Below, in pieces: positions 620 to 39,848 of a stretch of DNA of 48,459 nucleotides. The stretch is from Piscirickettsia litoralis (GTDB taxonomy: Bacteria; Pseudomonadota; Gammaproteobacteria; Piscirickettsiales; Piscirickettsiaceae). The stretch lies in contig NZ_MDTU01000006.1 of the NCBI RefSeq assembly GCF_001720395.1, positions 1 through 48,459 on the forward strand, written 5' to 3'. The notes below the pieces were generated by a model. The model saw only the letters and a program-made list of their open reading frames with translations. It did not search any database and was not told where the DNA came from. The position numbers and the translations under genes were made by a program. The stretch's first letter is position 1, and each line of letters begins with the position of its first letter.

Positions 620-1558
620 TTAGACAAACTTAGGAGCATCAACATCAATCTTTATATCTACTTTTTTAGCTTCCACATAACCTCTATCTACTGTCGGCTG
701 ATCTTGTGAATATCTATTATTAGATTTTTCCTTAACCTTCTCTAGATGCTCTTGATCTGCGATATGGACTTTAATTTCACCACTCCAAAGTTCATCATCG
801 CTAAAGGTTAAATCAATTAATAATGTGATTTGGTTATCCTCTAGCGCTTCACTCTTCACTGTGACACTATCAAAGCGTTTAATAAAGTTTAGTGGGGGCG
901 ATTTCTGTTGGCGACCTGCAATAATGCGGGACAGTCGAATATATTCAAGTTTAATCAATTTTGAAAGTAGAGCTAAGTCGTGTTTATAATCCCAATAATA
1001 TTGGGAAACAAGTGACCCTATGGACGAGTCCAAGAAATACTCGCCTTTGACCAACCCCAGCGCGATTGACAGCTGTTGAAGAGCTAAGTCTTTGCCAGAA
1101 ACTGTCTTCAATTTACCATTCTCAATTGATAGATCACCATTTTCAAAAGACAAAGAAAAGCCGATTTTATTTACATCTTCAATCTTAGTATTTGGAAGTA
1201 GATCGAGAACTAATTCTTTTGTTGAACAAATGAACTCTAAATCATTTAGAGTTCTGGCGTCCGACTCCGACTCAATAATAATAAAATTTTCATCAGGAGA
1301 TAATGTTTTATAATCTTTGCAAAAATCTTTCAATCCATCAAAGTCACCTTTAATAAAATCAGCAACGATAAGTGTAAGTTTCGAAGATTTTATGGATGTT
1401 AGATAACCCTTAAAAATTAAGTCAAAACCGAACTGAACAAGAGTAGCTGTCTGATCTGTTACCTTTTCTATTGTACCGGCGGTCACATAGATAGTAACAT
1501 CTCCATTAATATTAGGGCCGACCCCACTATGAGTTTGGTTTATTGTTTTTTCATCCAT
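620..1558 (-). CDS. GapS6b-like protein, second gene of a putative anti-phage pair
   Basis: This 312-residue soluble protein begins MDEKTINQTHSGVGPNINGD. That opening carries the short HSGxGxNxxGD motif found at the ends of several conflict-system proteins. The same motif ends the upstream gene (HYGIGNNINGD), so the two proteins probably interact through it. The start codon lies inside the last codons of the upstream gene (8-base overlap, ATGGATGA), which indicates translational coupling. The pairing of a roughly 110-residue protein with a roughly 310-residue protein, both carrying this motif, matches my memory of the GapS6a/GapS6b defence pair from gamma-mobile-trio islands. That assignment is from memory and not searched. 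No catalytic residues can be named with confidence. Confidence 0.55.
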   Translation of the reverse strand: MDEKTINQTHSGVGPNINGDVTIYVTAGTIEKVTDQTATLVQFGFDLIFKGYLTSIKSSKLTLIVADFIKGDFDGLKDFCKDYKTLSPDENFIIIESESDARTLNDLEFICSTKELVLDLLPNTKIEDVNKIGFSLSFENGDLSIENGKLKTVSGKDLALQQLSIALGLVKGEYFLDSSIGSLVSQYYWDYKHDLALLSKLIKLEYIRLSRIIAGRQQKSPPLNFIKRFDSVTVKSEALEDNQITLLIDLTFSDDELWSGEIKVHIADQEHLEKVKEKSNNRYSQDQPTVDRGYVEAKKVDIKIDVDAPKFV

Positions 1559-1880
1559 GGCTTATATTTATATCCCCGTTAATATTATTACCAATACCAT
1601 AATGAGCCTGGTTTACTGTGTGCGTCACATTCTGTCTTGGTATACTCGACAGCATGTTTATAATATCTTGTGATGATTTAAGCTTTTTATCAATAGCTAA
1701 TTCACTCATATCAGAGTTCAAGTCTAGTTTATTAAGCTCATTTGAAAGCTGTGTTGCAATTTCATCAGTTAATACGTATTCCTTTAATGATTGCTTGAGT
1801 TTTTCTTTTCCAATTTCCAAGCTCTTTTTAAACAGATCATATATGCAACCAGAAAGTATTGTTGTTGTTACGAAGTCCAT
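1551..1880 (-). CDS. GapS6a-like protein, first gene of a putative anti-phage pair
   Basis: I chose the ATG at 1880 (MDFVTTTILSGCIYDLFKKS, 109 residues), because the N-terminal helix then starts as in the family as I recall it; an upstream ATG at 1922 would add 14 residues. A hydrophobic start (TTTILSGCIYDLF) is followed by a charged helical region. The C-terminus, HYGIGNNINGDINISHG, mirrors the N-terminus of the next protein. The gene lies downstream of the KAP NTPase on the same strand, about 140 bases away and behind a possible terminator, so it may have its own promoter. The GapS6a label is a family guess; the pairing and shared motif are directly visible. Confidence 0.55.
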   Translation of the reverse strand: MDFVTTTILSGCIYDLFKKSLEIGKEKLKQSLKEYVLTDEIATQLSNELNKLDLNSDMSELAIDKKLKSSQDIINMLSSIPRQNVTHTVNQAHYGIGNNINGDINISHG

Positions 1881-1941
1881 AACCAATATCCACTTAAATT
1901 TAAATAAGTGTGATTCTAACATGCATCAAACAAAACCATGA

Positions 1942-1973
1942 AAAACAAAAAATCAGCGCCGCGAAACCCGCGG
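1942..1973 (-). terminator. Possible rho-independent terminator after the KAP gene
   Basis: Read on the minus strand, a CCGCG-GGTTT-CGCGG hairpin is followed after five bases by a T-rich tract (ATTTTTTGTTTTT). It sits between the KAP NTPase stop and the GapS6a-like start. The stem is only 5 bp, so it may be leaky. Confidence 0.4.
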
Positions 1974-2021
1974 TGTGTGGCACCGTACAACGCCCACCCC
2001 CTAAGGAGTACCTTCCTAAGC

Positions 2022-3326
2022 TTAGCCTATAAGCATCAAGGTTTTAATTGGCTGCTGAACTATTCCTTTTAAGTCATCTATGCCATACACAGAAGTGGAC
2101 ACAAAACATTTCATAACTTCATCAGACCATTTATCACTATGGAACTCCACCTTCTTTTCAAAAGGCTTATCTTCAAGTGCGAAAATATAGCATCCTGCTA
2201 AAATATGAAGAATCTTATCTCTATGAGTATCTGTATCCTCTATGTGCTTGTATTCCATGCCCAGTATTTCATAAAGCTCATCAACAGTTGCATTTCCATC
2301 TAATATTTTTTGTGAAAATGAAGAGTAAAAGCAATGTATGTAAATAGAAAATATAAATATCAGGCTAAAGTAGTAAGGATACTTAAAAGGTTTACCTGAT
2401 AGATGACAATAAATCTTTAAATATCTAAATAAATCTTCAGATTCTCTTAGTGAAAGTTGACGGGTTTTAATAAGTTTACTTAATAAAAAGATATACCCCT
2501 CTTTCGAAAGTTCTTCAAGGTTCTTATCATTTTCTAACAAACTCTGTATGTGTACTTCTACAGCATGAAGATTGTTTTTCGTTTGTGAAGGTAATTTAAA
2601 CGTAAACTTAATAAACTTATCAATGTAACGTCCAGCTTCAGACAGTGAGCTACCATATGAGTGTTGGATAGATGTTATAAGCTGTTCTGAATTAGCGATT
2701 AAAATAAACTTGACGTTAGCTATATCAAATACATGTTTTATCTTCTCAAGCATAGCAACAGCAAAATCGGGCCTACACCTATCTAACTCATCAATAATAA
2801 TTATTAACTCCTGCCCTTCTGTTGCCTTTAACAGCCCTTCTTTTAAAGCAGCAATATTACTTTCTTCTTCTCGATGTCCATCAATGATAGATTTTACAGT
2901 CTGATCGAGACCTTCAGTAATGGCGTTTTGAAACTCTTTTGCAATTTCATCACAGTCTGCTCTTAATAAATAAGAAACTCCGGCTTTTGCTGCTATTCTT
3001 AAAGAGTGCTTCACTGCTGGTATCGCTGCCTTAACAAGTGTATCGCCTTTTTTCTTCTCGATGCTTTCTGCTATGCGCCCTACTAAAACCCCCAAAGGAT
3101 CACGGCTATGATCAAATCTAAAAGCATCTATGTAAACATATTTAGATTTACTAGAGTCTAGATTCCTTTTTATTAATTCAGCCAGTGTTGTTTTTCCTGT
3201 CCCCCAAAACCCATCTACTAATAGCGGTGATAAATCTATATTCGACCGTATAAGATTTATAAGTTTATCTGCTAAATCTGCTCTTTCTAAAGTATCTTTT
3301 GCTTCAAGCTCTTGTTGGACTTCCAT
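2022..3326 (-). CDS. KAP-family P-loop NTPase
   Basis: The 434-residue protein has a Walker A motif, GFWGTGKTT (39-47), and a Walker B with the KAP signature, LIIIIDELDRCRP (174-186). A sensor-like segment FILIANSEQL follows near 207-216. A hydrophobic stretch near 319-338 (YYFSLIFIFSIYIHCF) could be a membrane segment, as in many KAP ATPases. KAP NTPases occur in phage-exclusion and other defence systems (for example the QatA and PifA types) and act at or near the membrane. Its position beside the GapS6-like pair and away from the virion genes fits a defence role, although the substrate is unknown. The motif evidence for the fold is strong; the biological role is inferred. Confidence 0.8.
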   Translation of the reverse strand: MEVQQELEAKDTLERADLADKLINLIRSNIDLSPLLVDGFWGTGKTTLAELIKRNLDSSKSKYVYIDAFRFDHSRDPLGVLVGRIAESIEKKKGDTLVKAAIPAVKHSLRIAAKAGVSYLLRADCDEIAKEFQNAITEGLDQTVKSIIDGHREEESNIAALKEGLLKATEGQELIIIIDELDRCRPDFAVAMLEKIKHVFDIANVKFILIANSEQLITSIQHSYGSSLSEAGRYIDKFIKFTFKLPSQTKNNLHAVEVHIQSLLENDKNLEELSKEGYIFLLSKLIKTRQLSLRESEDLFRYLKIYCHLSGKPFKYPYYFSLIFIFSIYIHCFYSSFSQKILDGNATVDELYEILGMEYKHIEDTDTHRDKILHILAGCYIFALEDKPFEKKVEFHSDKWSDEVMKCFVSTSVYGIDDLKGIVQQPIKTLMLIG

Positions 3327-4463: not shown

Positions 4464-5285
4464 TTAAATTTCTTTATATAAATTTACGATGAAGTCATTT
4501 AGCCTAACTTCCCAATCAAAGCCTAAATGTAGCTCTTGAATCGTTTCACAGACCTTAATAACCTTATAAAGATCATCTTGCGTATAATTATTATCTTGTA
4601 GAAAAAAATCACTTACTATCTCTTTAAATAGTTTGCGGTGTTCTAAGTCTAAAAGTGCATCGTTTATATTAAAAAATTTGTCACTCATAGAACTATGAAG
4701 TTCCACCATCTTTTCTAAGCGAATTTGAAGAGCACAAGTCTTTTTGAATATATCTGGATCATTTATATATTTTTTACCTACTTTTTTACTAAAAGCTCCT
4801 ACCTCTTGCAGATTCCGTGAACACCTTTTACCTTTTTCAGTAATTTCTAGCAATAAATCGTTGACAAGATTACCGACTTTCAAGTGCTTGTATCTTAGTA
4901 AGAGTGGATCTGCACCCATATTACGAAGCACTTCGTTAAGATCGTATATAGAATTTGTGTAAATAGCTTCTCTTTTTAATGGATCAAAATATTTGCTCAA
5001 AATATCTGTTAATTCATTTATTTCTTTTTTCCTTTGCTCACGATTATCTTTTCCTCTATTTGATATAAACAATATTAAAGGAATAGAGATAGTGGCAACC
5101 GCACTAATCCATCCGCTAACAGGACCTAGTACTTGTCCCAAATTAATTTCGCCCTCAAACAAGCCAATCGACAATAGCGCTCCAACTAGCAATCCAGGTA
5201 CCGCACCAGCAATGACATAGTTATGATAGCTATTGAAGTTAAAGTTTTCCCCTACCTTGAACCATGTTTTTAATGCCGTTTTCAT
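4464..5285 (-). CDS. Membrane-anchored protein of unknown function
   Basis: The 273-residue protein has two hydrophobic segments near the N-terminus (about 26-46 and 56-78: VIAGAVPGLLVGALLSIGLF and VSGWISAVATISIPLILFIS). A long charged, mostly helical domain follows and would face the cytoplasm. No catalytic motif is recognised. It is the last of three overlapping or abutting genes (5614-4464) located between the defence block and the methyltransferase. That position and the membrane anchor would fit superinfection exclusion or lysogenic conversion, but this is inference only. Its start overlaps the preceding small ORF by 47 bases in another frame. Confidence 0.6.
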   Translation of the reverse strand: MKTALKTWFKVGENFNFNSYHNYVIAGAVPGLLVGALLSIGLFEGEINLGQVLGPVSGWISAVATISIPLILFISNRGKDNREQRKKEINELTDILSKYFDPLKREAIYTNSIYDLNEVLRNMGADPLLLRYKHLKVGNLVNDLLLEITEKGKRCSRNLQEVGAFSKKVGKKYINDPDIFKKTCALQIRLEKMVELHSSMSDKFFNINDALLDLEHRKLFKEIVSDFFLQDNNYTQDDLYKVIKVCETIQELHLGFDWEVRLNDFIVNLYKEI

Positions 5286-5691: not shown

Positions 5692-6705
5692 CTAGAGTGT
5701 AGATCGTGTCTCTAGCGCTATTGTGTGAGGTTGTTTTTTGCGTGTTTTGTTAAAAATGGCTGATTTGTCATCTAAATTATTGATTTTTTGTTTACATCGA
5801 TTGAAATATTCTTGATCAATCTCAATACCTAAAAAATTACGCTTTAATTCTTTAGCCAAAACTCCAGAGTTCCCTGAGCCTAAAAACGGATCAAGTATTG
5901 TATCGCCTTCCCGTGAGCTTGCTTTAATTATTTGTGCGTATAATTGCAATGGTTTTTCGCATGGGTGCCGGCCTTTGTAGCTCACAACCGTTTTAAACTC
6001 CCACAGGTCCGTATTAAAATCAACTTCATCCGCTGAAAAAGGCCGACGTGCTTGTTTACGCCGCACCATGTATTCATGCTGTAAATCACTATATGAACGC
6101 GGATAAATGTTTTTATCTTTTGCTCTTGCATAGCTTCTTAGCTGCTCATACCTTTCTTTAGAAGGTAATGACCATTGTGAAGCGTTGAAATAATGCCGTG
6201 CTGACGAACCAACAACCTGCTCAGCTTCTTTTTTGGTGAGTCCTGCCCGTGTCCACTCATTCATGTAGTAGCGTAACGGCTCTAGCATTTCTTTTTGCGC
6301 GACTGGTGCATTTTTTGACTCAGCAAAAAGCACATGCTCCGTCTGGGGAAAGTATTTGCGTTGGCTTGATCGTTGCACCATTAAATGGCGACCATTTGGT
6401 TTATTCCAAACGATATGACTCAACACTTCTAAATACTTTGATAGTGCAACGGAGATTTTCGCCGACATATGGTTATAACAAAATAAGTACAAACTGCCCG
6501 TTGGCTTAAGAATACGGGCAAATTCAGCAAAGACCTTTTCAAGCCATTCGATAAATTCAGTTTCTGTACGCCACTGCCGATCCCACTTTTCGCTTACAAC
6601 ATTAAAGTAAGGTGGATCGGCAATGATTAAATCAATTGATTCGTTTTCTATTCTCTCCATGCAGTGTAGTGCGTCCTCATTATACAGCGTTGAGGTTGGA
6701 ATCAT
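5692..6705 (-). CDS. Beta-class DNA methyltransferase (orphan)
   Basis: The 337-residue protein has the catalytic motif IV, DPPY, at 30-33. The S-adenosylmethionine-binding motif I, DPFLGSGNSG (272-281), lies near the C-terminus, followed by FLGIEID. Motif IV before motif I defines the beta class (N6-adenine or N4-cytosine). The middle of the protein (about 100-240) is long and would hold target recognition. Start: GGAG five bases before ATG, just past the lysis-operon terminator. No restriction endonuclease gene is adjacent, so this is most likely a solitary phage methylase protecting phage DNA or modulating expression. The recognition sequence cannot be read from the gene. Confidence 0.88.
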   Translation of the reverse strand: MIPTSTLYNEDALHCMERIENESIDLIIADPPYFNVVSEKWDRQWRTETEFIEWLEKVFAEFARILKPTGSLYLFCYNHMSAKISVALSKYLEVLSHIVWNKPNGRHLMVQRSSQRKYFPQTEHVLFAESKNAPVAQKEMLEPLRYYMNEWTRAGLTKKEAEQVVGSSARHYFNASQWSLPSKERYEQLRSYARAKDKNIYPRSYSDLQHEYMVRRKQARRPFSADEVDFNTDLWEFKTVVSYKGRHPCEKPLQLYAQIIKASSREGDTILDPFLGSGNSGVLAKELKRNFLGIEIDQEYFNRCKQKINNLDDKSAIFNKTRKKQPHTIALETRSTL

Positions 6706-6720
6706 TTTTGCTCCGGCAAT

Positions 6721-6743
6721 AAAAAAAGCGCCGTTAAGCGCTT
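6721..6743 (-). terminator. Rho-independent terminator of the lysis operon
   Basis: On the minus strand, AAGCGC-TTAACG-GCGCTT is followed by a run of T residues. It comes 35 bases after the o-spanin stop and just before the methyltransferase start. Confidence 0.7.
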
Positions 6744-6777
6744 AATAGGTAGAAATACATATCATTTTCAGTATGGA

Positions 6778-6975
6778 TTAAGTGTATCCGTTTTCAAGTT
6801 GCATGATGTAACTGCCAAGTTTCACGCTATCTTCTCGATCAAAGCACACCCCACCATCAGTTCTTGCTATCGTCTGCAATGTTGGTTTTGGTGGTTTTGT
6901 CGGCATTTGCTGAGCGCACCCGACGCTTAAAATGCTTACTAAACCAATTAGAAGGTTTCTCTTGAAGCTCATCAT
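6778..6975 (-). CDS. Outer-membrane spanin lipoprotein (Rz1-like)
   Basis: The 65-residue protein has a lipoprotein signal with lipobox LSVGC, placing the acylated cysteine at residue 20. A proline-rich stretch (MPTKPPKPTL) follows, then a C-terminal helix (LGSYIMQLE). Proline content, small size and lipobox are the hallmarks of Rz1-type o-spanins, which join the i-spanin to fuse the two membranes at lysis. Its first half lies inside the end of the preceding gene in another reading frame, the usual nested Rz/Rz1 arrangement. The family match is structural rather than by sequence identity. Confidence 0.75.
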   Translation of the reverse strand: MMSFKRNLLIGLVSILSVGCAQQMPTKPPKPTLQTIARTDGGVCFDREDSVKLGSYIMQLENGYT

Positions 6976-7066
6976 ACTCTTGCTGCTGTTTTTCTGATTG
7001 CTCAGTACGCTGCCAACGCATCACGAGCGAAAGCAGCGTATTGAGAATACTAAATAGTGCGTTCAT
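6857..7066 (-). CDS. Inner-membrane spanin-like protein (Rz-like)
   Basis: The 69-residue protein has a short hydrophobic N-terminus (ALFSILNTLLSLVM) followed by a charged helical region (RTEQSEKQQQEYDELQ) and a polar tail. The o-spanin lipoprotein gene is embedded in its 3' part in a different frame, with 119 bases shared. That overlap, and its place directly after the two lysis membrane genes, is the main evidence for an i-spanin. It is shorter than lambda Rz, and the membrane segment is only marginally long. Confidence 0.6.
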   Translation of the reverse strand: MNALFSILNTLLSLVMRWQRTEQSEKQQQEYDELQEKPSNWFSKHFKRRVRSANADKTTKTNIADDSKN

Positions 7067-7073
7067 TTCCTAA

Positions 7074-7439
7074 TTAAGCTGCGGCGGCGGGTGGGTCAGT
7101 CTTACTTGCTGACTTATCCGGTACTGGCTTAACCCCTTGATCAAACTGCTCAACCGCTTTTAACAACTTAAATAAGTCATCTGTTGAGCCAGTCCAATTG
7201 TGCGTTTTGATATCCTGCCTGATCTTGCTGACAAGATCCGAAACAGCATCACCTGACTGCTTTGCTTTTGAAGAATTTAAAGCAAGCGCCTCAATGATTT
7301 TGTAAATTAATGAAATAAACCCCTTGGATTTTGGCGTATTAATGGTCGCACAGAGTGCGCTGGCGATCATTACTAAAAGACTAGCAATACCCACAATCGA
7401 ATGGGGAAAGGCTTGGGTTAATGAGTTAATAACTGTCAC
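7074..7439 (-). CDS. Lysis-cassette membrane protein (possible holin partner or second holin)
   Basis: The 121-residue protein has one clear hydrophobic segment, SIVGIASLLVMIASALCATI (about 14-33). A mixed helical region and a Pro/Ala-rich tail (PDKSASKTDPPAAAA) follow. It lies between the holin candidate and the spanins, 7 bases before the latter. That context suggests a lysis role, either as an antiholin or as a second pore-former. The sequence alone does not decide. Confidence 0.55.
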   Translation of the reverse strand: MTVINSLTQAFPHSIVGIASLLVMIASALCATINTPKSKGFISLIYKIIEALALNSSKAKQSGDAVSDLVSKIRQDIKTHNWTGSTDDLFKLLKAVEQFDQGVKPVPDKSASKTDPPAAAA

Positions 7440-7465
7440 ATAGGTTCTCCTTACATTGGGCCGAT

Positions 7466-7765
7466 TTAAAGTTTATTTTGGCTCTTTACAATATTCATGA
7501 GTCTTTGTATCGCCTCCACACCTGCATATCCAGATAAACCGACCATTGCCGCCGTCATTGGTCCAGAAAAACCGGCCTCAATACACAAATAATTGGTAAT
7601 GATGCCAGCAAAGGCTGAACACAATAATCGTGCAAACAGGTCTAACCATGAAAATTTCTCTTCTGTCTGACTTAGGTAATTTGCATAACGAGATGCAGCA
7701 CCTAGCCAACAGAGCAAAATTAACATGAACCATTTTAGGGAGCCGGATTGGTCGGGTTCTATCAT
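7466..7765 (-). CDS. Holin (LydA / holin family 3-like)
   Basis: I chose the ATG at 7765 (MIEPDQSGSLKW), giving 99 residues; a TTG at 7780 would add five. The protein has three hydrophobic segments: WFMLILLCWLGAASRY, LFARLLCSAFAGIITNYLCI, and a C-terminal one ending GLSGYAGVEAIQRLM. Three segments with the conserved GxxGYxGxE-type end match the LydA-like holin family as I recall it. It would make the inner-membrane holes that release or activate the endolysin. A strong bidirectional hairpin stands just 18 bases before the start, so expression probably depends on read-through or antitermination. Confidence 0.65.
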   Translation of the reverse strand: MIEPDQSGSLKWFMLILLCWLGAASRYANYLSQTEEKFSWLDLFARLLCSAFAGIITNYLCIEAGFSGPMTAAMVGLSGYAGVEAIQRLMNIVKSQNKL

Positions 7766-7778
7766 AAATTTCAGGCAC

Positions 7779-7810
7779 AAAAAAACCAGCGCTTGGCTGG
7801 TTTATTTTTT
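7779..7810. terminator. Bidirectional rho-independent terminator ahead of the holin
   Basis: AAACCAGC (7783-7790) pairs with GCTGGTTT (7796-7803) around a 5-base loop. The minus-strand product ends in seven T residues and the plus-strand product also has a T-run. It stands between the early genes and the lysis genes, which are co-oriented, as a Q-controlled late terminator would. Confidence 0.7.
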
Positions 7811-7850
7811 ACGGGCGTTAAATCCCAGAATATTAATTTACCATCCAAAT

Positions 7851-8306
7851 TTAACCTAAAAGCCGCCCCCCTGCAAGCACTTTTTTCACTTTTTTTAAAA
7901 TATTTTTTCTTACACTATAGCAACGATCAATAATAGATGGATTTTTACTATTGTTTTTAATGTTGTCATCATAAACCTTTTTTGTGGTCATTGTTGAAAT
8001 TTTTCGTATTTCCCACTTCAGCGTGAACTTTAAACCGCATTCACGACAAATATAATTATCTCCCTCTGACTCAAAACATGCCCCAGGAAAGTATCGATAT
8101 TCACAATGGGGGCAAACGATGTTACGTTTTGAACCTTGCAGCGCTTCGTCTACTGCATGTGCATGTTGGGTTAAAATATCCGCCATTTCTTGAGTCCCTG
8201 CGAATCGCTTTAAAACTTCAGCAATAAATGGCTCGGCTTGATTGCAAATGACAAGTAAATTAGCCGCTTGCTGAAAATTAAGTTGAACGGCTTCTTTTGG
8301 CTCCAT
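7851..8306 (-). CDS. Zinc-ribbon protein of the early operon
   Basis: The 151-residue protein has a central zinc ribbon: CPHC (about 65-68) and CREC (about 87-90) flank an aromatic YRYFPGACF strand. An acidic helical N-terminal region precedes it and a lysine-rich C-terminus follows (RKNILKKVKKVLAGG). It could bind nucleic acid or another phage protein. Its ATG directly follows the stop of the upstream gene (TAA then ATG), so it is co-translated. I do not recognise a named family. Confidence 0.6.
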   Translation of the reverse strand: MEPKEAVQLNFQQAANLLVICNQAEPFIAEVLKRFAGTQEMADILTQHAHAVDEALQGSKRNIVCPHCEYRYFPGACFESEGDNYICRECGLKFTLKWEIRKISTMTTKKVYDDNIKNNSKNPSIIDRCYSVRKNILKKVKKVLAGGRLLG

Positions 8307-8834
8307 TTAGTTTCCCAAGCATTCTACTTTATTAAGATTCTCTACTTGAAAGGTGGGCCTTTCTAGCTCTTTGCATTTTTCAAGTGGCAGAATATTCATA
8401 TCTTTAAAACAATCCGCATGTTGCTCTATGTGTACTTGATGAAACACTCTTACCCAATACAGATCAGGAGAAGTTCCAATCACTGTACGAGCAAAAAATA
8501 AATCATTGCCATCCCACTTATCTTTTATATAAGCAACATACTGGCGTTCATTGCTTTTAGTGTTGGGATATAAGTCTTTATTATCTACATGCTGTTCGTC
8601 AACTCTATAAGTTAGCAATCTATCAACATCATCTGTTTTAATAAAAAACTCTTTATACTTACTGCTTCCCTTGTACTGTTCCCTAGGGACTCCATCATCT
8701 ATTTCACTTTGTGCTTCTTTGCGAGTGTAAACATGAGCTTTATTTAAGTTAGTTGTGTAGCCCTTAGCATCTTTAGCCCAAAATAAAATGCTTGTACCTA
8801 CTGTGCCGTTTGTTTTGTAAAATGTGTCGGTCAT
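8307..8834 (-). CDS. Phage protein of unknown function
   Basis: The 175-residue soluble protein starts MTDTFYKTNGTVGTSILFWA. It is rich in charged and aromatic residues, with no membrane segment and no recognised motif. It is followed without a gap by the zinc-ribbon gene and lies in the tail of the early operon, downstream of the Q-like gene. Confidence 0.6.
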   Translation of the reverse strand: MTDTFYKTNGTVGTSILFWAKDAKGYTTNLNKAHVYTRKEAQSEIDDGVPREQYKGSSKYKEFFIKTDDVDRLLTYRVDEQHVDNKDLYPNTKSNERQYVAYIKDKWDGNDLFFARTVIGTSPDLYWVRVFHQVHIEQHADCFKDMNILPLEKCKELERPTFQVENLNKVECLGN

Positions 8835-8871
8835 TTTTATTTACCTATAACAAATCTCTTGCTGTTAATCT

Positions 8872-9480
8872 CTATGCCGCTTGCTGTTGTGCTTTATAAG
8901 CATCGTATTGAGATATGCCCCATACAGTGGCTCTTAGGCAAAAAATATAGCGCCATGTAAATGGTTTCCAAGAGCGCCAGCTTTCAAAGAAATCATAAAA
9001 ATCAAAATATTCATCATACTGTGAATCAAAATTTCGCACGTAGGCGATCGCCTCATGCTCATCTTCACATATAAGTATTTCGTTTTTGATTTCCTCTCTC
9101 ATTTTTTCTTTATTTTCGAGGCAATCAAACTCACAGTCATCAAAATACTCTAAAAGTGCGGCTTTAAAAGAATCAATACAAAACTCTCTACAATCATCAT
9201 TAACACCAACAGCATCTAGCTTCTCAGACCAATAATCGGGGTTTATTTGGTGGACTTTCGGTTCACGAAAAAAATTAAACATATCCCGCTTTCGCCAAAA
9301 CACATAAGTCCCCATGTCTCCACTAATGCATAAATGATTTTCCCACGTTGTTAGCTGAAATGAGTAGTCACTCGCTCCTGACCGGCTAAAGCTAATGTGA
9401 CGATTAAGCCCATTATCATTACCAACTATCATTTCATGCTTTGCTGCAATTTTCATAAACTCTTCATGTGTACAACTCAT
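8872..9480 (-). CDS. Conserved phage protein with SGDMGTYVFWR motif
   Basis: The 202-residue acidic protein contains WENHLCISGDMGTYVFWRKRDMFNFFR (about 46-72). I recall a very similar motif in phage hypothetical proteins of many proteobacterial prophages. The rest is rich in Asp, Glu, Phe and Tyr. The function is unknown. The ATG overlaps the stop of the small zinc-motif gene (ATGA), and a strong GGAGG lies upstream, so the two are coupled. Confidence 0.65.
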   Translation of the reverse strand: MSCTHEEFMKIAAKHEMIVGNDNGLNRHISFSRSGASDYSFQLTTWENHLCISGDMGTYVFWRKRDMFNFFREPKVHQINPDYWSEKLDAVGVNDDCREFCIDSFKAALLEYFDDCEFDCLENKEKMREEIKNEILICEDEHEAIAYVRNFDSQYDEYFDFYDFFESWRSWKPFTWRYIFCLRATVWGISQYDAYKAQQQAA

Positions 9481-18265: not shown

Positions 18266-19438
18266 TTACCTTTCCACCAGCCCCAGCTCAAAATCGGACC
18301 AATCAGCCTCATCCAAAGGCACATTCTGAGGTCTACGATCCAAGATCAGCCTAACCACCTCACCCACAAACAAAGCCATAGCTTCCAAACCCCCAGCGCT
18401 TATATCTGATATACCCCTAATGACACCTTTAAAAATATAATCTAAAACCGCAACCCAGCAACGCTTTACGGTGCTGAGTGACATACCAGAGCGCTGGGCA
18501 ATATCGGCTTGATTTAGGTTAAGCTTTAAATCAATGCCAAGCTTCGCACCTCTGGCTGCGCGTTTGAGCTTATCAAAGGTTTTGCCTCGCTTTATCTCTG
18601 CACTGTATAGTGCGCCTGCCTGCATCTTCTCTGTAGCAGTAAGCTGTGTTTTGTTTAAGCACATTACACCTCTATTCTTGGTATTGGTCCCTGCCCCTTT
18701 ATAATGCTTCCAGGTCCACTTTGTGATGCTCTTTACTGTCGCTTCAATTTCACTGGTTGGTAAGTAACCAGTAGCGCTGTTATAGCCTTGGCCGTTAATC
18801 CCTTTACCTTTGGCTAAGCAGGCTGAATGAAACGACTCATAAGAGTTGTGATTTTTCTTTTCTGCATAGGACCAGAACCTTAGCTTATCGAAAAGCTCAT
18901 TATTCCGTCCCTCATTTTCACGAATCTGTCTAGTTAATGGTATAAAGTCTCGTTTTAGTTCGACATGTTCAGCAAGTTCGCCCAATGAATATTTATGATC
19001 AGTTGGGTAAATAGTAAACCATTCGTCAGATAAAGGGTTTTTAGCAATTAAGCCTGTATAGCCTTTATCTGCGTCTAATTTCTCAACATAGGCTCTCTCA
19101 ATGGCTTTTAAATACTCTTGAGGCGCAGTATGGGCGTTTTTGCTCGTATAAACTTCGTGAATATTGTAGAAATAATGAACGTGGCGATTATCTCGATTAA
19201 TGCTTATGATGTTTGGCGCAGGCAAACCCAGCTTTTCATATAAGAAAGTTGAATCTGGCTGATCTATATCAATAATTAACCAGCTTTTGCTTGTGGGTGG
19301 GTTCGCCTGAATATAGTTTGTTTTTAATGCGCCTTCTTTTGGCCATATCTTTACCCCCTCTTTTAAATCGAAAGAGCAGTATGGCTTTTCAGGCAAAGCA
19401 TTAACAAAAGTTTGTAGTACCCTCTCTTTTAATTGCAT
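18266..19438 (-). CDS. Plasmid-type replication protein (replicase/primase, ColE2 Rep-like)
   Basis: The 390-residue protein has a replicase domain: KSWLIIDIDQPD (about 51-62), NRDNRHVHYFYNIHEVY (about 81-97), then NPLSDEWFTIYPTDHKYSLGELAEHVEL (about 133-160). A primase-C-terminal-like region (EGRNNELFDKLRFWSYAE) and a C-terminal helix-turn-helix (NLNQADIAQRSGMSLSTVKRCW) follow. The order fits the ColE2-type Rep/PriCT family, which primes and starts plasmid replication at a specific origin. A phage with lambda-type O/P would not need it, so it argues for a plasmid prophage. A 30-codon leader ORF sits 21 bases upstream. Confidence 0.75.
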   Translation of the reverse strand: MQLKERVLQTFVNALPEKPYCSFDLKEGVKIWPKEGALKTNYIQANPPTSKSWLIIDIDQPDSTFLYEKLGLPAPNIISINRDNRHVHYFYNIHEVYTSKNAHTAPQEYLKAIERAYVEKLDADKGYTGLIAKNPLSDEWFTIYPTDHKYSLGELAEHVELKRDFIPLTRQIRENEGRNNELFDKLRFWSYAEKKNHNSYESFHSACLAKGKGINGQGYNSATGYLPTSEIEATVKSITKWTWKHYKGAGTNTKNRGVMCLNKTQLTATEKMQAGALYSAEIKRGKTFDKLKRAARGAKLGIDLKLNLNQADIAQRSGMSLSTVKRCWVAVLDYIFKGVIRGISDISAGGLEAMALFVGEVVRLILDRRPQNVPLDEADWSDFELGLVER

Positions 19439-24171: not shown

Positions 24172-25005
24172 ATGGATACACAAATATTTGCAATCTGCAA
24201 TCAGAAAGGTGGCGTAGGTAAGACGACTACATCTATAGGTTTAGCTCGCGCTCTAGCAGAAGATGCTCCTACACTATTTCTAGATTTAGACACTCAATGT
24301 AACTCAACATATACACTAATGGGCATTAATGAAGATGAATATGACGGCCCAACAGTAAAAGAGGCTTTGTTAGAGGACAAGGTTGAGCTAATTAATTTAG
24401 AAAATAATTTATTCCTATTACCTGGAAGCGATGATTTAGAAGACCATGTATTATTTACAACAGTGCCTCCTCATCGTATTTTACGACAGCTTCAAAAATT
24501 ATTATCAAAAATTCAAGAAAACACTCAAAATAAATTTAGTTATATCGTTTTAGATTGTCCACCAAGCAAAGGAATTGTGCTTCAAAATGCATTAGTTGCA
24601 GCTACCTATGCCTTAATTGTTCTAAAATTAGACACTTATTCTTCTAAAGGAATAAAAAAACTTATTAATACTATCGATAACCTCATTGAAGAAGGTGATT
24701 CAAAAATCAAAATAGCTGGCATGCTTATTAATGACTTTGACAAGTCAACAGAAATGGATAGAAATAACTTCGTAAAAATACAAGAAATGTATTCTTCTTA
24801 TATATTCGACACAATGATTAATCATAATCAGTACGTTAGAAAATTAGTTAACCCAACTCAAAAACCAAGAAAAAATATAACCCATATGTATAAAGAATTT
24901 AAACTTGAATTACTCAGCCGCATAAGTAATGTTTCACCACAAAAATGGGGAGTAGCAAAAGCTAACTCTAATAAAGAAAAAAAAATTGCTGGAGAAAATA
25001 AATGA
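24172..25005 (+). CDS. parA: ParA partition ATPase
   Basis: The 277-residue protein has the deviant Walker A motif KGGVGKTT (12-19), then LFLDLDTQCNSTY (about 35-47) and YIVLDCPPSKG. The N-terminal DNA-binding domain of P1-type ParA is absent, so it is closer to the short chromosomal/Ib type. It moves ParB-bound DNA along the nucleoid so that each daughter cell inherits the element. Its last four bases overlap the parB start (ATGA). Confidence 0.93.
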   Translation: MDTQIFAICNQKGGVGKTTTSIGLARALAEDAPTLFLDLDTQCNSTYTLMGINEDEYDGPTVKEALLEDKVELINLENNLFLLPGSDDLEDHVLFTTVPPHRILRQLQKLLSKIQENTQNKFSYIVLDCPPSKGIVLQNALVAATYALIVLKLDTYSSKGIKKLINTIDNLIEEGDSKIKIAGMLINDFDKSTEMDRNNFVKIQEMYSSYIFDTMINHNQYVRKLVNPTQKPRKNITHMYKEFKLELLSRISNVSPQKWGVAKANSNKEKKIAGENK

Positions 25006-25946
25006 TTATAAAAGAAAAACCTAGAACCACAGTAAAAGCAATTAAAGGCACGCAGCTACCAGAGCTTGAAAAGGCGGACCTGTCAGTTATTGAAGGACTG
25101 CATAGTCAAATTAACGTTAAAAACATAAAAACAAATCACATTGTAAGGTACGAATTCAAAAACCGTAACCCAGAAGAATTTGGCGATATGGATGCGTTAA
25201 AATCAAGCATTAAAGAAGTGGGAATATTAAAGCCCATTATCGTTTTTGATACCGAGGATGGTTATATATTAATAGCTGGCGAAAGACGATGGACTGCTTC
25301 TAAAGAATTAAACCTAAAGACAGTTCAAGCAAAAGTATATCCTGAAGAAATGTTTAGTGATGCTTTTGCGTTAAGGCTTCAAGAAATTGAAAATGAAGAA
25401 AGTGAAGGAATGACAGATTATGGTAAGTTTAAACACTATAGAAATTTATTAGAAAATGATATTTATGCCAGCAGAGGAGATTTGATTGACAAATTAAATA
25501 TAAAAGGCGGTCGGCAAGAACTAAGTAGAATGTTTAGCTTTGAAGCTTTAGAAGCATACGACAACCTAATTAATTGCTTCAATATTTCCAGCAGAAGAGC
25601 TGATGACATTAAAAAGAAAATCTTTAACAAACTGGGATCAAAATTAGATAAATTTGTCAAAGATAATTACTTGGGTATTCAAGGCGAGCTATCAATTTTT
25701 AAGCTAGAAGAAGTTGCAAAAAAATATATCGGCCAGAATTCAAAAAAGCAAAAAAAACAATCTTTCCATTACGACATTAAAACAAAGTCAGGCTCTAAAG
25801 CTATATCTTCATCACTAAACAACCAAAACATCAGCTTGAAATTATCTGAAAGTATAAAAAACAGCTACCTATTGACAGAAAACGATCTAAAGGAAATTAG
25901 CAATTTAGCCTGGAAATACATTTCCAAAAAAATCCCTAATGATTGA
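25002..25946 (+). CDS. parB: ParB partition protein
   Basis: The 314-residue protein has the ParB/Srx CTP-binding core: VGILKPIIVFDTEDGYILIAGERRWTASKEL (about 80-110), with the GERRW motif. A central DNA-binding region and a lysine-rich linker (QNSKKQKKQ) precede a C-terminal helical part. It should bind the two palindromes found just downstream (25959-25980 and 26076-26103) and recruit ParA. Gene order (HTH, parA, parB, parS) is that of a plasmid partition operon. Confidence 0.9.
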   Translation: MIIKEKPRTTVKAIKGTQLPELEKADLSVIEGLHSQINVKNIKTNHIVRYEFKNRNPEEFGDMDALKSSIKEVGILKPIIVFDTEDGYILIAGERRWTASKELNLKTVQAKVYPEEMFSDAFALRLQEIENEESEGMTDYGKFKHYRNLLENDIYASRGDLIDKLNIKGGRQELSRMFSFEALEAYDNLINCFNISSRRADDIKKKIFNKLGSKLDKFVKDNYLGIQGELSIFKLEEVAKKYIGQNSKKQKKQSFHYDIKTKSGSKAISSSLNNQNISLKLSESIKNSYLLTENDLKEISNLAWKYISKKIPND

Positions 25947-38573: not shown

Positions 38574-39474
38574 TTTTCACCGTTAAATTAATTTGATCAT
38601 CCGCACAATAAGCCGCTTGAGTCGCTGTTGGGATAATTTTGTTTGCAGGTTCTTCGAGTTCAATATCAATGATCGGCGATTGTTCGCTGTCAGATTGCTT
38701 GGCAATGTAGGCATAAATCGCCCCACTCACAGCGCTCGGGGTGACTTCTCCGCCTAGTCGATAATTATTGCGAGCAAATAATTTTGATGCCGCATAGGCC
38801 GGTTCTAGAATGGTGGAGGCCGATGGTCCCGACGGAATAAAAATGGTCCCCTTAATCGAATAATTAAGCGCTGTTTCTTTAGAAACCACATTCACAACCA
38901 CTTGATCATTATTAGGTCGAACCTTCTCTTTGGATAGCGCAGTTAAAATGGTATTTTTTAAATCGGCATCGCTAACTGTGCTGGTTAATTTTTTAAGTGC
39001 TGTCACTGTGACCGTGCCTTCTTGTCCTTCCGGTGGCATTGTCGGCACATAGGCACTTTGCACATCTAACGGCGCCGCTTGTATCGTCAAGGCTTCATAG
39101 GCATCAATAGGACCGGCCACTGATAATAATGCCGGTGCGGCTAAAACACGCTGCCGAAAGGTTTCATCATCTTCACCGGCTTCGGGCGTTAAGCCATAAA
39201 AAGCCCCTAGATTATAGAGGTTGGTTTGATTGGCATAAGCAATTAAATTTTGTTCACCGGCGCGCTGAATGTCTTGACGACGAATGTACTCGCGATAACT
39301 GGCATTTTGAATTGAAATAATCGCAGGGTCAGAGTTCGTTAAAGTAACCGTCACCCCCTGTTCTTTGAGCTTTTCATAAAAAGTATCGAGACATTCTTGA
39401 TAAATCTCATCATAAGTTTTAATCACACCAAAATCTGGCGCAGGCACTTGGGCCAAATTTAAGGTATTACTCAT
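38566..39474 (-). CDS. J: P2 J-like baseplate wedge protein
   Basis: The 302-residue protein contains PDFGVIKTYDEIYQECLDTFYEKL at the start and NQTNLYNLGAFYGLTPEAGEDDETFRQRVL later, with GAIYAYIAKQSDSEQSP near the end. These are the gpJ baseplate motifs. It overlaps W by four bases and I by eight, in the usual W-J-I order. Confidence 0.93.
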   Translation of the reverse strand: MSNTLNLAQVPAPDFGVIKTYDEIYQECLDTFYEKLKEQGVTVTLTNSDPAIISIQNASYREYIRRQDIQRAGEQNLIAYANQTNLYNLGAFYGLTPEAGEDDETFRQRVLAAPALLSVAGPIDAYEALTIQAAPLDVQSAYVPTMPPEGQEGTVTVTALKKLTSTVSDADLKNTILTALSKEKVRPNNDQVVVNVVSKETALNYSIKGTIFIPSGPSASTILEPAYAASKLFARNNYRLGGEVTPSAVSGAIYAYIAKQSDSEQSPIIDIELEEPANKIIPTATQAAYCADDQINLTVKNV

Positions 39475-39848
39475 ATCGCCTCACTGTATTGATAGGATTG
39501 GCCATCGGGATAGGTCGCGAAACTAATCGATAGGCGTAATTTTCCATTGTCGAGCGCTTCAACTTGGGTTGAGCTCACTTTGAAATAAGGTAAGCCTTGA
39601 TCTTGAAGTTCTTTCGATAGATTTTTAAGTGCGCCATCACAGGCCATGACAATGTCAATTTTTATGCTGTCTGTGATCGGTGCGTCTAAAATTTCGCATA
39701 AAGTAGTGCCATACCACCGCCGCATCACACGGGTATTTTTAGGGGTCGTTAAGCAATCGCCAATCAATTGAAATAAATAATCAATCCCTTGGAGAGATTT
39801 ACCGGTTTGACTGCACATGCCTTGAAGTTGATCGAGCGTATTTTTCAT
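39471..39848 (-). CDS. W: P2 W / gp25-like baseplate protein
   Basis: The 125-residue protein contains GIDYLFQLIGDCLTTPKNTRVMRRWYGTTLCEILDAP, the gp25-like lysozyme-fold signature with MRRxYG. It joins the baseplate wedge and initiates sheath assembly. It has the expected length and position before J. Confidence 0.93.
   Translation of the reverse strand: MKNTLDQLQGMCSQTGKSLQGIDYLFQLIGDCLTTPKNTRVMRRWYGTTLCEILDAPITDSIKIDIVMACDGALKNLSKELQDQGLPYFKVSSTQVEALDNGKLRLSISFATYPDGQSYQYSEAI

Follow-up and report, generated by a model that had tools for sequence, protein, structure and literature searches.

A predicted motif-coupled gene pair joining a GapS6a-family protein to a sheath-initiator-like protein in a prophage of Piscirickettsia litoralis

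Organization of the locus

The sequence analysed here, referred to as the window, is a stretch of 48,459 nucleotides of Piscirickettsia litoralis (contig NZ_MDTU01000006.1 of assembly GCF_001720395.1), which carries a prophage with a contractile tail. The original prediction described a KAP NTPase gene next to an overlapping gene pair; all three ORFs were indeed found, on the minus strand, and the two genes of the pair, here named ORF-a and ORF-b, overlap by 8 nt (1551-1558). The features of the locus, in the order of transcription, are:

2022..3326, minus strand: KAP P-loop NTPase (Pfam KAP_NTPase, 9.2e-45; PADLOC PDC-S20, 9.3e-128), judged to lie outside the pair
1959..1973, minus strand: terminator-like hairpin CCGCGGGTTTCGCGG followed by a T-rich tail, between the KAP gene and ORF-a (weak evidence)
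1551..1880, minus strand: ORF-a, HetE-N (GapS6a/'BabyBass') effector-type protein of 109 aa (Pfam, NCBIfam, PDB 9h9v)
1563..1619, minus strand: C-terminal motif of ORF-a, TVNQAHYGIGNNINGDINI (score 73 against the ORF-b motif)
620..1558, minus strand: ORF-b, proposed sensor of 312 aa (relatives found by tblastn; no GapS6b match)
1490..1546, minus strand: N-terminal motif of ORF-b, TINQTHSGVGPNINGDVTI (motif score and covariation test)
1184..1447, minus strand: N-terminal half of the ORF-b body, residues ~38-125 (conserved with HNH-fused relatives; strand-rich in the AlphaFold model)
749..1183, minus strand: predicted sheath-initiator (gp25/gpW)-like domain of ORF-b, residues ~126-270 (PHROG, PDB profile, VIA-align)

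The longer annotated ORF of ORF-a runs from 1922 to 1551. Because comparison with homologues showed that these start with MDF or MEF, the start was moved to Met-15 at 1880, which is probably the true one. The genes had also been placed at the edge of the element; the first base of the window is base 1 of the 49,907-base contig, so that this edge is also the contig edge, and therefore an element boundary cannot be claimed there.

Several other features of the contig were recorded. Two 65-nt direct repeats, 80% identical and with ATGTCCGC boxes, are located at the contig start (48-112 and 120-184), possibly as a replication or end structure. The product of the gene at 4464-5285 has hydrophobic segments at its N-terminus and matches LeoBC weakly in PADLOC (8.6e-5); this is perhaps another accessory defence gene. 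Inside the contractile-tail prophage there are a Replicase-family (PF03090) gene (18266-19438) and a ParB-like gene (24172-25946), the latter with a 277-aa gene just upstream; the Replicase and ParB-like genes suggest a phage-plasmid-like stage. At its right end, however, the contig has a gene for a periplasmic binding protein besides an N gap and a terminase-like small subunit.

ORF-a is related to GapS6a and BabyBass

ORF-a passed the NCBIfam GapS6a model NF047935 (129 bits against a cut-off of 90; 7.4e-38) and matched Pfam HetE-N at 6.1e-27. Its sole close solved relative is PDB 9h9v, the 'BabyBass soluble domain', which is 36-38% identical to ORF-a and was recovered by profile (5.8e-26), by Foldseek (1.4e-5) and by structural alignment (Z 14.3); the two have the HetE-N domain and the fold in common. 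Judged from these profile matches, ORF-a is a GapS6a-family protein. The effector domain described by Kaur et al. 2021 (PMC8195603) is taken here to be HetE-N.

The predicted likeness of the pair to GapS6a/b thus stood for ORF-a and did not extend to its partner. The GapS6b profile NF047936, of 1,089 positions, gave no match to ORF-b at E<=1; for the third gene, KAP_NTPase matched the KAP protein. ORF-b as GapS6b, or as a degraded GapS6b remnant, was rejected, since it lacks a profile match and its body has a family of its own.

Matching motifs at the facing ends of the pair

The same motif had been predicted at the facing ends of the two proteins, and HxGxGxNINGD is common to both. Between TVNQAHYGIGNNINGDINI at the C-terminus of ORF-a and TINQTHSGVGPNINGDVTI at the N-terminus of ORF-b, 12 of 19 residues are identical, and the local score of 73 lies well above that of 5,000 residue shuffles (mean 20.5, maximum 41). 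Different codons are used at 6 of the 12 identical residues. A recent duplication of the motif is unlikely with half of the identical residues differing in codon, and for the same reason the likeness is one kept at the protein level.

Comparison of cognate motif pairs over 23 loci gave a mean score of 59.4, versus 49.8 when the motifs were re-paired, and the cognate score was reached by none of 20,000 permutations (p<5e-5). For the pairs of the window, Vibrio and Pseudoalteromonas, the cognate partner came first whichever half was taken; most of the covariation signal comes from divergent pairs, and without these three p is 0.012. Such covariation is what homotypic contact predicts, and it supports the earlier suggestion that the two proteins pair physically.

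In bacterial amyloid signalling pairs (BASS; Dyrka et al. 2020, reviewed in PMC7889193), a motif is found at the C-terminus of the effector and the N-terminus of its partner, and the genes are adjacent or overlapping. The window pair agrees in both the placement of the motif and the overlapping genes. It differs in that the BASS partner is an NLR NTPase, whereas no NTPase match was found in ORF-b by Pfam, PHROG and NCBIfam profile searches, and in that the effector of the pair is HetE-N and not a shown Bell domain. The contact between the motifs of ORF-a and ORF-b is probably amyloid-like.

Partners of the ORF-a relatives

Thirty-one further GapS6a loci were collected from plasmids, genomes and viral contigs. 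Most of them have a following gene whose product is about as long as GapS6b (850 to 1,140 aa), and of five such partners tested NF047936 matched four; GapS6b partners scored 843-1185 bits, and one diverged partner 270. A second type of partner, a protein of about 930 aa, was found in Buttiauxella, Citrobacter and a viral contig. It had no match in Pfam or PADLOC, and the Buttiauxella relative had none in NCBIfam either; apparently it represents an unnamed partner type. The motif-bearing ~930-aa partner follows a GapS6a-like gene at L013 (5001-8095), L045 (6001-9119) and L060 (787-3905).

A third type occurs in Thiothrix, where an ABC-three-component set has a Lamassu-like LmuB ATPase and its CTD9 protein bears the motif. 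The order at this locus (L048, Thiothrix fructosivorans, 6001-9304) is the HetE-N effector, then ABC-3C CTD9 with the N-terminal motif, MC5 and LmuB. The Thiothrix CTD9 set is another sensor linked to a HetE-N effector by the motif.

Across the GapS6a loci the canonical form of the motif is QxHSGxGDNVxGxK, and nearly every partner carries at its N-terminus a motif like the C-terminal one of its HetE-N neighbour. Because the partner types differ between loci, HetE-N together with the motif is read as a plug-in effector. The window pair resembles GapS6 (NF047935/NF047936) in its GapS6a-family ORF-a, in the order of a then b and in the matching motifs at facing ends; the difference lies in the partner, which is about 1,100 aa long in GapS6b versus 312 aa in ORF-b, the two being unrelated by profile.

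The body of ORF-b is fused to HNH nucleases elsewhere

The body of ORF-b begins at about residue 38 and is 24-33% identical to its relatives by tblastn (E 4e-9 to 8e-36); the shared body is also supported by phrog_34329 (2.9e-19). Relatives were found in the Z region of P2-EC46, in Yersinia and other viral contigs, and on plasmids of Rhizobium, Bradyrhizobium, Aureispira and Pseudoalteromonas. Every intact body relative found (about 11 distinct ones) has an N-terminal HNH module, and a few further copies of the body are broken or truncated. In two relatives that were scanned, the HNH module was of PADLOC CBASS (SAVED-HNH)/Shedu type, with best matches of 1e-18 to 1e-26. Viral contigs also contain HNH modules of the P2-EC46 type joined to a NACHT ATPase (L031, 4959-7148; L032, 2252-6640).

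ORF-b has no N-terminal HNH module, and the motif stands at that place; thus P2-EC46 Z-region ORF2 (CAD54902) and Rhizobium WP_064647212 share the sensor body with ORF-b at 24-33% identity but have an HNH nuclease where ORF-b has the motif. Because the body is common to the relatives while the output module changes, it is read as the sensor. The best reading of this comparison is a swap of effectors: in the window, the fused HNH nuclease would have given way to an effector that acts in trans and is linked by the motif.

Further examples of the pair were sought in 369 genomes of the class, 398 genomes of the phylum, IMG/VR, and phage and plasmid collections, by single-protein scans (genomes, IMG/VR), a two-sequence alignment scan and HMM search (class and phylum samples). 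Each half has known kin, and among the collections searched a HetE-N effector of GapS6a/BabyBass type was found together with the motif and a gp25-like body once only, at this locus.

A sheath-initiator-like domain in ORF-b

The C-terminal part of the body matched components of the phage baseplate. ORF-b alone matched the baseplate wedge phrog_120 at 9.8e-6, and all seven members of the body family matched baseplate PHROGs (best 3.7e-9). When the family profile was compared with PDB, the best match was the phi812 wedge (5.1e-6), and nearly all of the nine chains obtained with E up to 10 were baseplate, tail-lysozyme or sheath-initiator proteins. The Pfam Sheath_initiator cut-off (PF10934) was missed by ORF-b, with 13.5 bits against 32.9 and an E of 0.08.

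The AlphaFold model of ORF-b has a mean pLDDT of 54, with values of 70-90 over much of residues 150-280, and the first 38 residues are unstructured. Plain Foldseek with this model returned nothing below 0.001. With VIA-align each of the top 15 was a baseplate or sheath-initiator chain (Z 5.3-9.8), among them 2ia7, a putative tail lysozyme (Z 9.8), and T4 gp25 (5iw9, Z 8.5). The gp25 signature G.......Q......L....GE.......G is largely retained in the family and in the window. As an independent, blind test, 577 ORFs taken from P2, T4, Mu and this prophage were ranked, and their four sheath initiators took places 2, 3, 5 and 6 (chance 3e-9), none of the four being significant individually. In a profile-profile comparison restricted to four sheath initiators, the alignment was collinear but its probability low.

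The assignment to the gp25 fold is based on the sequence profiles, with VIA-align as a second look. On these profile matches and the predicted model, the C-terminal body of ORF-b is related to the baseplate sheath initiator gp25/gpW, the fold of residues ~126-270 being alike. It differs from gp25/gpW in that the domain lies inside a longer protein and outside the tail operon, and the prophage has its own gp25-family sheath initiator gene, at 39471-39848 (phrog_43, 3.6e-20). An origin of ORF-b as a recent copy of that gene was rejected, since the pairwise score of 28 is within the shuffle range. Residues ~38-125 are conserved in the family and matched no known family.

Proposed mechanism and alternatives

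We favour, with slightly more confidence than doubt, a reading in which ORF-a and ORF-b together make up a sensor-effector system of two genes coupled by the motif, probably of the abortive-infection type, where a baseplate-mimic sensor replaces GapS6b. ORF-b would be the sensor, its gp25-like domain engaging, at a late stage of infection and during assembly, baseplate components of an invading phage with a contractile tail. ORF-a, a small helical HetE-N domain, would be the effector and inactive alone. Engaged ORF-b may then cluster, so that the NQxHxGxGxNINGD motif at its N-terminus serves to nucleate the C-terminal counterpart in ORF-a; this homotypic and probably amyloid-like step would gather HetE-N domains, which may be toxic when assembled, and the cell would be stopped or killed, with protection against the phage as the presumed outcome. 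As the prophage encodes its own sheath initiator, self-triggering in its own lytic cycle needs an explanation: the pair would have to ignore the prophage's own baseplate, act before that baseplate exists, or be shut off during the lytic cycle. The broader proposal, that a defence sensor derived from a sheath-initiator domain detects contractile-tail assembly and passes its signal to effectors that are interchangeable (a fused HNH nuclease, or HetE-N in trans via a prion-like motif), is put forward tentatively, as a possibility that we hold with more doubt than belief.

The motif-coupled sensor and effector could also be kept with the gp25-like domain as a borrowed binding scaffold, responding to a trigger other than the baseplate. 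This agrees with the remoteness of the gp25-like similarity (the phrog_120 match of 9.8e-6, and the Pfam E of 0.08, far under the cut-off), with the conservation of the strand-rich residues 38-125, which match nothing known, and with the presence of the sensor body on rhizobial and Aureispira plasmids, beyond contractile phages. The gp25 signature, however, is largely retained in the family and in the window, as if the surface were in use, and P2-like phages and a contractile-tail prophage are among the carriers; we consider the borrowed scaffold rather unlikely. If ORF-b were instead a decoy subunit, entering the baseplate of a superinfecting phage and blocking tail assembly with ORF-a as an accessory, its sheath-initiator fold and its location in a prophage with a contractile tail would be accounted for. 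The relatives that carry an HNH nuclease in one polypeptide, and the covarying motif that the window pair retains with its GapS6a effector, both point to signalling to an effector, which makes the decoy quite improbable.

The pair could alternatively be of toxin-antitoxin style, with ORF-a toxic alone and ORF-b a neutraliser that has no role in sensing phage. That both genes are small, overlap and lie on a mobile element would fit this, as would the description of HetE-N as an effector domain (Kaur et al. 2021, PMC8195603); yet the ORF-b body is fused to nuclease effectors elsewhere, which fits a sensor and not an antitoxin, and the two halves of the motif correspond to each other as they do in amyloid signalling pairs, so that we give this alternative hardly any weight. 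A three-gene system of KAP, GapS6a and ORF-b, which had been raised as an undescribed arrangement, was judged just as improbable. Its genes are on the same strand about 100 nt apart, with G+C of 0.34, 0.32 and 0.35 against 0.44 in the late genes, and KAP, through its match to the PADLOC candidate family PDC-S20, is a defence candidate. KAP relatives, however, were present in none of the 31 other GapS6a loci and in none of the loci with the ORF-b body, so the expected recurrent neighbourhood did not appear, and neither ORF-a nor ORF-b relatives adjoin the two closest KAP relatives. The terminator-like hairpin between KAP and ORF-a also stands against it, as weak evidence: the RNA fold energy of the gap is not unusual for its composition and no more stable than that of shuffles. 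In view of the missing co-occurrence the three-gene system was rejected; KAP matches the PDC-S20 profile, its membership in the ORF-a/ORF-b pair is without support, and it is judged to be a separate neighbour outside the pair.

Implications

If the motif-coupled reading with a baseplate-mimic sensor is right, it would name a testable phage trigger for this defence family, the baseplate sheath initiator or its binding partners, and would extend to the relatives with a fused HNH that P2-like prophages and rhizobial plasmids carry. It would also mean that immune sensors and effectors are swapped freely, with a short matching motif as the connector that replaces gene fusion. With only 109 and 312 aa, the pair offers a small system for asking whether prion-like templating carries an anti-phage alarm; if true, virion-part mimicry would be a new sensing principle, joined in a bacterial prophage to amyloid-type signalling.
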